Origin: Agreia sp. Leaf283
Lineage (GTDB): Bacteria > Actinomycetota > Actinomycetes > Actinomycetales > Microbacteriaceae
Length of the DNA stretch: 64,000 nucleotides
NCBI RefSeq assembly: GCF_001422485.1
Contig: NZ_LMNF01000001.1
Span: 1,541,498 to 1,605,497 of the forward strand
Reading direction: 5' to 3'
Made by a program: the position numbers and the translations under genes. How positions within the stretch are numbered: position 1 is the stretch's first letter; every line of letters begins with the position of its first letter. Positions 39,716 through 42,485 of this stretch are shown one piece after another. Under the pieces are notes generated by a model. It was not told the origin of the DNA and ran no database searches. It saw only the letters and a list, made by a program, of their open reading frames with translations.

Positions 39716-39721
39716 GGGGGC

Positions 39722-39883
39722 ATGAAGGTCAACCCGTACTACTCGAAGAAGCCGCAGGACACGCACGTCTTCCACGACGAGCGCACGTGCCCCGAGGGCT
39801 CTGCGATTCCGCTCGAGAACAAGAAGTTCGGAACCAACGGCTACCCCCGGTGCCCCCGCTGCGCCGCCCTCGCGGGCAAGTAG
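39722..39883 (+). CDS. Small cysteine-containing protein (53 aa)
   Basis: Frame MKVNPYYSKKPQDTHVFHDERTCPEGSAIPLENKKFGTNGYPRCPRCAAL... Residue Cys23 plus the C-terminal CPRC pair and His15/His18 could bind a metal, giving a rubredoxin- or zinc-ribbon-like mini fold. Small actinobacterial proteins of this type exist, but I cannot name a function. It is followed by the convergent reverse transcriptase gene 9 bases later. Confidence 0.65.
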   Translation: MKVNPYYSKKPQDTHVFHDERTCPEGSAIPLENKKFGTNGYPRCPRCAALAGK

Positions 39884-39892
39884 CGCGGAAGG

Positions 39893-41221
39893 TCACGACC
39901 AGTCGATGCGGTCGAAGTCTCGGCGCAGCCTCGTGCCGCGCGTCTGACTGACGCTGGCTATCCAGTTCAGCCGGCCCAGCAGGTGGGCCCTGAAATCGGG
40001 GTGGCCGGCCCTGTTCTGACTTGCCGGGCCGTGCACGACGCAGTTGTGCAGAAGAGCCTTCAGCTCGTCGAAGGTGGGTCGATCGACGGACGGGCCGTCG
40101 TTCACGACGAGGCCCGTCACACTCTGGCGGGCTCCTCGTGCGGCGATGCGGGTCTTCGACCGGTTCAACACGTGCCCCTCGGCCCGCACGATGCGGTCGA
40201 CTCCCGAGATGAACGACGTGGCCGCCCGCCCGCGCAGGTCGGAGCCGCTGAATGCCAGGTCGTCGGCGTAGCGGGTGTAGACGGCGCCGGATGCCGCGGC
40301 CCAGCCGGTGAGCCGGGAGTCGAGACGGCGCATGGTCAGGTTCGACAAGGCCGGCGACGTGGGGGAGCCCTGCGGCAGGTGCGACCGCGAGATCGCGTCT
40401 CGCAGAGCCGCGCGATCTTCGGGCGAGCCGCCCGACGGCATCCGGGCGCCCACCCACGGCGGCACCGCGTGCGTGCACAGGCCCGTGAGTGCGTGGGCCA
40501 CCGCCTCGGGGTACCCGGCCTGCCGGAACACGGAGTAGACGCGCCGGGCCGGCACTCGGGCGAAGAAGGTGCTGAGGTCGAGCGTGATGAGCGTGTGCGC
40601 GCCGGCATGGGCCGATGCGCCGGAGATGGCCGAGCGGCCGGGAACGAAGCCGTGTGCGGCGTCGTTCAGGGGGAGCGGGCCGAGGATGTCTCGGAGCACG
40701 CGTCGCTGCACCCGTCGCATGCGCGGAGTCGGAACCTCGAGCAGCCGAGGTGCTCGCCCGGGGCGCACGAGCCAGTCGTAGCTGTAGTGGTGCAGCCGGC
40801 CCCGCGGGGTTCGGCGGTTGAAATGCGCGGTGTCGGTGAGCCAGTCGAGCTGCGGTGACGTCACCTCGAGAAAGTCGGCGAGCTCGCCGAGGCCGTCGAG
40901 GGATGGGACGGCCGCCGAGGTGGGGGCCATACGCGCCGGCGCGGTCTCGAGATGCACGAGGGAGATCTCGCGTTGCGACTCGTGAGCGGATTGGAGGGCA
41001 TCCTGGATTGCGGAGCTCTGCTCGATCCAGCGGGCGAGCTCGCGATGCGCGTCTCTTGGAGGGCGTCGATACGCGTCGAGAACCCCGTCGACGAGCGGCC
41101 ACAGCCAGCCCGGACGTGACCCGAGTGCCCGGCCGCAGGCATCCACCAGCGGGTCGAACGCCCACTCGGGCGAGGCGAGCAGGGCGTGCGAGAGCCCGGA
41201 GGCGAGGGCGGTACGCGTCAC
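39893..41221 (-). CDS. Retron-type reverse transcriptase with ~100-aa N-terminal extension
   Basis: 442-aa RNA-directed DNA polymerase. The RT core starts near residue 105 (VPSLDGLGELADFLEV). It has YDWLVRPG..RLLEVPTPRMRRVQRRVL, LDLSTFF (catalytic D215), LPQGSPTSPALSN, and the active site YTRYADD (318-321). Two retron-specific marks are present: region X NDAAHGF (186-192, NAxxH type) and region Y VTG (368-370). The helical N-terminal extension recalls the longer RTs of myxobacterial retrons (from memory). The GTG at 41221 is chosen because the upstream open frame runs through the ncRNA; GGGGG lies 4-8 bases upstream. It would reverse-transcribe the RNA encoded at 41241-41411 into msDNA. Confidence 0.9.
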   Translation of the reverse strand: MTRTALASGLSHALLASPEWAFDPLVDACGRALGSRPGWLWPLVDGVLDAYRRPPRDAHRELARWIEQSSAIQDALQSAHESQREISLVHLETAPARMAPTSAAVPSLDGLGELADFLEVTSPQLDWLTDTAHFNRRTPRGRLHHYSYDWLVRPGRAPRLLEVPTPRMRRVQRRVLRDILGPLPLNDAAHGFVPGRSAISGASAHAGAHTLITLDLSTFFARVPARRVYSVFRQAGYPEAVAHALTGLCTHAVPPWVGARMPSGGSPEDRAALRDAISRSHLPQGSPTSPALSNLTMRRLDSRLTGWAAASGAVYTRYADDLAFSGSDLRGRAATSFISGVDRIVRAEGHVLNRSKTRIAARGARQSVTGLVVNDGPSVDRPTFDELKALLHNCVVHGPASQNRAGHPDFRAHLLGRLNWIASVSQTRGTRLRRDFDRIDWS

Positions 41222-41240
41222 GCGGCCCCCGGCAGGATGG

Positions 41241-41411
41241 GGATGCGACGAACTGCGGGCGACCGATCGATCGGTGCGGGCACCCGGCCGCGCGAAGCGC
41301 GGTGCGGTGCCTGCGGTTGTGCGTTCTGGCTGGGATGTGTGCCCCGGGGTGGCCCCGGAGAGAACGATCGTCTCGCGACGCCGTTCACCTCGCCCGCAGT
41401 CCGTCGCATCC
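41241..41411 (-). ncRNA. Retron msr-msd RNA
   Basis: 171-nt RNA on the minus strand, ending 19 bases before the RT start. Its ends are inverted repeats: a1 at 41390-41411 (GGATGCGACGGACTGC..) and a2 at 41241-41262, complementary in 21 of 22 positions. Inside, reading 5' to 3', lie hairpins GAGA-N7-UCUC, CCGGGG-CCA-CCCCGG (msr-like), a long stem GGCACC..CCGCGC-UUC-GCGCGG..GGUGCC (msd-like), and the palindrome CCGAUCGAUCGG just before a2. Order, size and placement fit a retron msr-msd. The branching G and the msd boundaries cannot be fixed by eye. Confidence 0.78.
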
Positions 41412-41415
41412 ACCC

Positions 41416-41444
41416 ACGCTAACGGCAGCCTCCGACGCCGTCGA
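41416..41444 (-). promoter_or_regulatory. Promoter of the retron RNA/RT
   Basis: On the minus strand TCGACG (41439-41444), a 17-base spacer and TAGCGT (41416-41421). The predicted start falls on the first bases of a1 (41409-41411), so the transcript would begin exactly with the retron RNA. Confidence 0.55.
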
Positions 41445-41463: not shown

Positions 41464-41529
41464 CCACTGAGGTGCGGGAAATGGCCGCTTTGCCAGGCAT
41501 CTATGCGGCCATACTCCGAACTTCAGTGG
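41464..41529. repeat. Hairpin element A (25-bp arms) at the DUF559 stop codon
   Basis: Arms 41464-41488 and 41505-41529 begin and end with CCACTGA/TCAGTGG and share an inner GGCCGC stem; 20 of 25 positions pair and the loop is 16 nt. The TGA of the DUF559 gene lies in the right arm. The core GAGGTGCGGG-N3-TGGCCGC recurs in element B at 42486. May terminate the DUF559 transcript before the retron promoter. Confidence 0.8.
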
Positions 41530-42428
41530 CTGAGTCGAGCGAGGATCAGGCGTAGTTCTTCGATGAAGCGTTGTGGGTCATCGAGATCGTCCTCGGTGAA
41601 CTGCAATTCAGTCCATCCCTCGGCCTGCAATGCTCGCGTACGCGAGATGTCTCGACGCCACTGCGATTGGTCGGCGCGGTGGTGGTCTCCCTGGTACTCC
41701 AGGGAGAGTTTGAGGTGCGGGTAGCAGAGGTCCACCCGGGCCAAGAACTTTCCCTTGGCCGAGAAGACACGCATGTTGACTGTGGGCTCGGGCAGCCCCG
41801 CAAGAATGATCGCGACACGCAGAAGCGATTCTCTCGGAGACTCCGCCCTGTCGGAGAGCATGCCGAGTGCGCGTCGAAGATTCCGGATGCCGCGCCGCGA
41901 CGTGTAGGTGGACACGGCCCGTTCGAGCGCAGCTCGTGTCGTCTGCGGGAGCCGTCGAGCGATCAGCTTGTCACCAGCTGCCACGAGCTCGGGGAGGGTG
42001 AGTACCGAAGCGAGGTCGCACCAGGTGCGTTCCGGTGTCGTGACGGGGAATCCGAATCGCTTGTCCCAGGCGCCGGAGCCGAAGGTCGCCTTGTGTCCGA
42101 TGATTCCCTTCGCGTCGACCGCACGCCGCGTCGCGGGAACAGAGACGTGCAGCTCACGCGAGGTACTGAGCCGAAGCGGAAGAGGGATTCTGTAGAGCCC
42201 CGCCGCCGTGACGTGGCTGAAGACGCCGTCTTGCGGCATCCGGGGCAAAAATGAACGGCAGCGATCCTCGAGAGAGACCAGCTCTTGTGTGGCAACGCGG
42301 ATGCCGTGGAACGGCTTGTCGAAATCGAGAGCCCGTAGCCTGCGCCGCGAGACGCCGTGTGCCCGCGCTTCCCCCACCGTGAAGGCCCGGTCGGGATGGT
42401 GAAACGGCCTCGGTGCACGCGGACTCAT
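41523..42428 (-). CDS. DUF559 domain protein (Vsr/PD-(D/E)XK-like), AbiEi-like N-terminus
   Basis: 301-aa protein from ATG 42426-42428 (GTG 42434 possible). The N-terminus (FTVGEARAHGVSRRRLRALDFDKPFHGIRV) looks like the winged-helix 'AbiEi antitoxin' domain often fused to DUF559. The C-terminus (VNMRVFSAKGKFLARVDLCYPHLKLSLEYQGDHHRADQSQWRRDISRTRALQAEGWTELQF) is the DUF559 nuclease-like domain, with D in ARVDL and E-x-Q in LEYQG as the probable active site. Function is unknown in this family. It lies upstream of, and on the same strand as, the retron, and is flanked by two related hairpins. Confidence 0.8.
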   Translation of the reverse strand: MSPRAPRPFHHPDRAFTVGEARAHGVSRRRLRALDFDKPFHGIRVATQELVSLEDRCRSFLPRMPQDGVFSHVTAAGLYRIPLPLRLSTSRELHVSVPATRRAVDAKGIIGHKATFGSGAWDKRFGFPVTTPERTWCDLASVLTLPELVAAGDKLIARRLPQTTRAALERAVSTYTSRRGIRNLRRALGMLSDRAESPRESLLRVAIILAGLPEPTVNMRVFSAKGKFLARVDLCYPHLKLSLEYQGDHHRADQSQWRRDISRTRALQAEGWTELQFTEDDLDDPQRFIEELRLILARLSH

Positions 42429-42485
42429 GCGCACATGGTGCCAACTTTCGAGTTCCCGCCGCTCCAGCTCTCCACAGGGAGCGTT

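Follow-up and report, generated by a model that had tools for sequence, protein, structure and literature searches.

The window, by which we mean the whole stretch of 64,000 nucleotides of the Agreia sp. Leaf283 genome that was analysed, carries on its minus strand, at positions 39893-41421, a genuine retron without an effector. The retron anatomy is shown by computation; msDNA is not shown. The new point beyond retron identity is that the template RNA is apparently translated. From the sequence evidence we infer that this is likely a stand-alone retron whose primary transcript doubles as a leaderless mRNA. Retron RNAs are treated as non-coding, and retrons have been little studied in the actinobacteria.

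Anatomy of the locus

The original prediction, made without database searches, described an intact retron with a promoter, two 22-nt arms (a1 and a2) enclosing 127 nt, and an N-terminally extended reverse transcriptase (RT) with the motifs YADD, NDAAH and VTG. We annotated the following features:

41439-41444, minus strand: -35 element TCGACG (from sequence; kept in most Agreia)
41416-41421, minus strand: -10 element TAGCGT (TANNNT; its spacing to a1 is fixed in 45 of 48 homologues)
41390-41411, minus strand: a1 arm, forming the 5' side of the long stem, with ATG in its first bases (sequence and covariation)
41389, minus strand: inferred branching G (conserved AG right after a1; analogy with known retrons)
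41362-41386, minus strand: msr hairpin I (fold and compensatory changes)
41342-41360, minus strand: msr hairpin II, CTCCGGGGnnACCCCGGGG (alignment and covariation)
41276-41314, minus strand: msd hairpin, from which the hairpin of the msDNA is likely copied (fold and compensatory changes)
41241-41262, minus strand: a2 arm (sequence and covariation)
41218-41409, minus strand: putative leaderless ORF of 63 codons spanning the whole msr-msd (ATG at the predicted +1; arrangement conserved)
39893-41221, minus strand: retron RT, 442 aa, GTG start (motifs, models and fold)
40973-41221, minus strand: five-helix N-terminal domain of the RT, aa 1-83 (structure model)

The arms held as predicted, and their 22 positions form 21 Watson-Crick pairs and one G.U pair. 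Together with the 127 enclosed nucleotides they make an inverted-repeat RNA of 171 nt, whose minus-strand fold has a z-score of -6.6 (0 of 200 shuffles were equally good). The best-conserved element of the RNA is msr hairpin II, CTCCGGGGnnACCCCGGGG. The sequence just after a1 is an invariant GAGG in actinobacteria and AAGC in distant members. Since the branching G of known retrons sits in (T/C/G)AGC (PMC6868368), we infer by analogy a branch point at G41389; in actinobacteria the G of this motif is present, but the C after it is replaced by G. Reverse transcription would be expected to start opposite ~41263, next to a2, which is likewise an inference without msDNA. The genome contains one RT and one retron RNA; a second retron RNA was searched for in the same genome and the single match was the only one.

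The -35 and -10 elements are 17 nt apart. In 45 of 48 loci, a TANNNT box lies 22-33 nt upstream of the point where a1 ends on its inner side, and its position almost always puts the predicted +1 on the first bases of a1. This promoter placement is shown by computation, and the predicted transcription start on the first a1 bases rests on promoter spacing, with no mapped transcript ends.

In Rathayibacter (L016 5784-5945 and L020 5783-5952; also G045, G116 and G172) the msr-msd RNA lies on the strand opposite the RT, an inversion confined to this genus. The inverted RNA keeps its own -10, the palindrome AGCCTAGGCT could provide a -10 for either direction, and the RT is preceded by a Shine-Dalgarno-like stretch.

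The reverse transcriptase

The three motifs were confirmed, with YADD at aa 318-321, NDAAH in region X and VTG in region Y. The most probable RT start is GTG 41221, which means that the RT is not the 535-aa frame beginning at 41500. Residues 1-83 form a five-helix domain. The structure model has a pLDDT of 94. In fold, residues 94-442 resemble retron RTs, Ec86 among them, more closely than any other kind of RT (VIA Z 27.2 for Ec86 vs 18.6 for DGR). The N-terminal domain is predicted confidently and is kept in most members. Searched alone, it had no Foldseek hit with E below 1, and its best VIA Z of 5.6 carries little meaning for a helical bundle. Within Agreia, the RT has a dN/dS of 0.12-0.20, which shows purifying selection.

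The RTs of two Amycolatopsis loci (L055 and L062) lack the N-terminal helical domain and are ~340 aa long, and the RNA loop at these loci is 121 nt. One myxobacterial genome contains a second RT relative (G302:C129:9005-9937).

Conservation of the RNA across relatives

We fetched 79 RT relatives for comparison, and the closest public relatives of the window RT are those of Agreia. Homologous RTs lacking the paired arms would have refuted the original prediction, which survived. Just before the RT, almost every actinobacterial homologue carries paired arms, different in sequence, that enclose a loop of 127 nt. The loop in the other relatives is mostly 121-150 nt. The covariation expected in the arms was found, with heavy compensatory change. 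The consensus structure of a 34-sequence alignment has 49 pairs, 31 of them with changes on both sides; 94.7% of the alignment cells are paired, 0 of 500 shuffles were as good, and slid controls reached 40-49%.

When 300 genomes of the family were searched with the RNA covariance model, 35 had the retron RNA and there was one further, marginal match; the RT search returned the same 35 (not counting three weak hits on other retron-like RTs). Rfam searches at gathering and lax thresholds gave nothing relevant. All six sampled Agreia genomes carry both RNA and RT, and the fetched Agreia loci have surrounding genes in common, at sites that are core-like and fixed. These observations are consistent with vertical inheritance in Agreia. 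An origin from phages or plasmids was considered and rejected, as only distant relatives were found there.

The claim of an intact retron is thus upheld by the arms, the covariation, the co-occurrence of RNA and RT, and the retron-like sequence and fold of the RT, while msDNA activity remains inferred. A decaying relic is all but excluded. In favour of a relic, one of the 35 family members has a frame-shifted RT; against it stand the dN/dS of the RT with its intact motifs, the presence in all Agreia genomes examined and the compensatory changes in the RNA. In the frame-shifted member (G098:C1:167966-169287) the RT is split into two overlapping frames and the retron RNA is retained.

An open frame through the msr-msd RNA

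The original prediction missed an apparent second role of the RNA, that of a leaderless coding sequence coupled to the RT. In the window, the frame runs from ATG 41409 to TGA 41220-41218 and overlaps the RT start GTG (41221-41219) by 4 nt, as GTGA. Most actinobacterial members have ATG or GTG (in one case TTG) at the predicted +1, 6-7 nt after the -10 box and on the first bases of a1. Over 26 loci, no stop occurs in 1790 codons of the +1 frame, and the other two frames contain 17 and 15. At 34 loci the frame terminates on the RT start codon, as ATGA, GTGA or TGATG and including three 8-nt overlaps, and the ORF length of 54-93 codons varies with the spacer. About 30 loci (Curtobacterium and others) have the frame fused to that of the RT, and most Curtobacterium offer no start codon ahead of the RT domain in the RT frame other than the +1 GTG or TTG. 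The open coupled frame is shown by computation; its translation is inferred. The 8-nt overlaps, in place of 4 nt, belong to L160, L163 and L170, where the sequence is GTGGCTGA or GTGCCTGA.

We first saw the pattern in Micrococcales and then tested it against loci that were fetched afterwards. Among the later loci of other families, 10 of 12 agree, and the other two come from lineages already known as exceptions. Since a few of the 34 loci are near-duplicates of one species, we counted them as at least 11 genus-level lineages. The arrangement is absent from the Arthrobacter agilis group, L008, L018, L032, L046, Amycolatopsis and Rathayibacter with its inverted RNA. In non-actinobacterial members the frame is not consistent, and often all three frames are closed. 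This fits the commonness of leaderless translation in actinobacteria, as described for mycobacteria (PMC4633059).

An alternative explanation is an ordinary retron with a non-coding 5' leader and an RT translated from its own codon, in which the open frame and the RTGA are by-products of GC-rich DNA and a conserved a1. Open frames are indeed common at such GC content (a mean of ~0.6 per locus in dinucleotide shuffles), codon periodicity is absent, and a few loci have a plausible Shine-Dalgarno sequence before the RT. Moreover, the RTG positions are not fully independent because the outer a1 sequence (RTGCG) is itself conserved. However, stops are missing from the +1 frame only, at least 11 genus-level lineages have an ORF of 54-93 codons that terminates on the RT start, most Curtobacterium have no other start codon in the RT frame, and three different frames are used across clades. 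The chance per overlap lineage is roughly 0.6 (open) x 1/3 (frame) x ~0.3 (next base A) = 0.06, a figure which is our estimate and not a formal test. We regard the ordinary retron as unlikely.

Translation rather than a peptide

The variable columns are distributed over the three codon positions as 48/43/48 (p = 0.84), without a third-position excess, and the same conserved hairpin is read in all three frames by different clades. Since codon periodicity is absent and the hairpin frame differs between clades, it is probably translation, as an open path to the RT start, that selection maintains, and not the peptide; this is inferred from the sequences.

The rival reading, that the msr-msd frame encodes a functional small protein such as an effector, an antitoxin or an RT cofactor, can point to an ORF of 54-93 codons coupled to or fused with the RT. 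Against it, substitutions show no third-position excess, and clades reading the same hairpin in different frames would make unrelated peptides. We rejected a functional peptide on these two grounds and hold this reading to be very unlikely.

Returning to translation of the RNA itself, Shine-Dalgarno pairing at the RT is stronger in the loci without the arrangement (mean -8.0 vs -4.0 kcal/mol, p = 0.005). The start sites of this uncoupled group were chosen by us, which is a possible source of bias. In ten modelled RNAs, the start codon is mostly exposed while the nascent RNA is 60 nt long and paired once the RNA is complete; two of the ten complete RNAs (L089 and L057) leave it about half exposed.

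Proposed mechanism

In mycobacteria, an ATG or GTG at the 5' end is enough for leaderless initiation (PMC4633059), and ATGA or TGATG overlaps give translational coupling (PMC6728339). In our model, transcription would begin on the first bases of a1, which are ATG or GTG in most actinobacterial members. A ribosome would initiate at this 5' RTG without a leader, read through the msr-msd and then re-initiate at the overlapping RT start (GTGA in the window) or continue into the fused RT frame. Once finished, the a1:a2 stem would pair the start codon and translation would be expected to stop, and the folded RNA would then be the template of the RT for msDNA. Each transcript would be either an RT message or an msDNA template, limiting the output of RT, and RT binding should limit RT synthesis too. 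No msDNA, transcript or ribosome data stand behind this model, so every step of it is inferred.

A bolder reading, which we consider no more than possible, takes the a1/a2 stem as a translation switch that senses the translational state of the host. Ribosomes on the nascent transcript would hold the RNA open and make RT. When translation falters, for example during phage infection, the RNA would fold, sealing the start codon and diverting the RNA to msDNA. Such a retron would sense the translational state and would need no neighbouring effector.

If the preferred, simpler model is true, RT synthesis and reverse transcription compete for one molecule in a clade present in several actinobacterial families. 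This competition would be a concrete and testable control mechanism, and expression constructs that separate the RNA from the RT may lose the natural control. A covariance model, a promoter rule and a large collection of retrons without effectors also come out of the work.

Neighbouring genes and the question of defence

The original prediction connected the retron with msDNA used in phage defence, and this part is unsupported at this locus. Apart from widespread transporter and enzyme families and cases of local synteny, neighbouring ORFs of at least 80 aa are not shared between genera, and neither is any small ORF near the RT. The conserved effector gene or fused effector domain of typed tripartite retrons was not met, and a trans-encoded effector elsewhere in the genome is not excluded.

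Directly upstream of the retron promoter, the window encodes an AbiEi-like protein with a DUF559/REase-like C-terminus (41523-42434, minus strand). It was rejected as an effector, being seen in only some of the fetched Agreia flanks. A small zinc-ribbon-like ORF with cysteine pairs (39720-39881, plus strand) is convergent with the RT.

The retron could still be a phage-defence system whose toxic part is the N-terminal helical domain of the RT or a protein encoded elsewhere. Typed retrons of known function are defence systems, and most members retain the five-helix domain, which is predicted with confidence. On the other hand, no neighbour is conserved across genera, the sites are core-like and fixed in Agreia, the Amycolatopsis RTs lack the N-terminal domain, and the domain has no clear fold match. 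On balance we lean slightly against this reading. Phage defence thus remains a possibility by analogy, plausible by kinship and unsupported here because no effector gene is conserved.

Comparison with known systems

Type assignment rests on PADLOC models. The window RT scores 565 bits with RT_other, 533 with RT_outgroup and 287 with RT_XIII. RT_other (PDLC02949) and RT_outgroup (PDLC03740) are its best models over the full length, and it belongs to this unclassified clade. The same two models are also best for the actinobacterial, acidobacterial, planctomycete and some of the myxobacterial relatives. They name the RT only and do not cover the RNA structure, the promoter, the missing partner or the translated frame.

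Type XIII and myxobacterial retrons (Mx162- and Mx65-like) have an N-terminally extended RT, long a1/a2 arms and apparently vertical inheritance (PMC6868368), and the window retron resembles them in all three respects. However, the best model of the Mx162- and Mx65-like RTs is RT_XIII (582 bits vs 287 for the window RT), and they form a clade separate from the window RT and well supported. By models and tree, the window RT does not meet type XIII membership. The RNA that we take to be Mx162-like, by anatomy only, differs from that of the window clade in its 190-nt loop and in having no CTCCGGGG hairpin.

The closest solved RT structure is that of Retron-Ec86 (Eco1, type II-A; VIA Z 27.2 over 301 residues, rmsd 2.7, 28% identity). 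Ec86 lacks the N-terminal five-helix domain and has a neighbouring effector, whereas the window retron has the domain and no effector.

To our knowledge, there is no described retron whose template RNA is translated to yield the RT, and leaderless translation of a retron is not described in the literature that we searched. The nearest likeness is to leaderless mRNAs and overlapping gene pairs (PMC4633059; PMC6728339), which have the same ATG or GTG at the 5' end and the same ATGA or TGATG overlap. Unlike in those gene pairs, the upstream frame of this clade is the retron template RNA itself.
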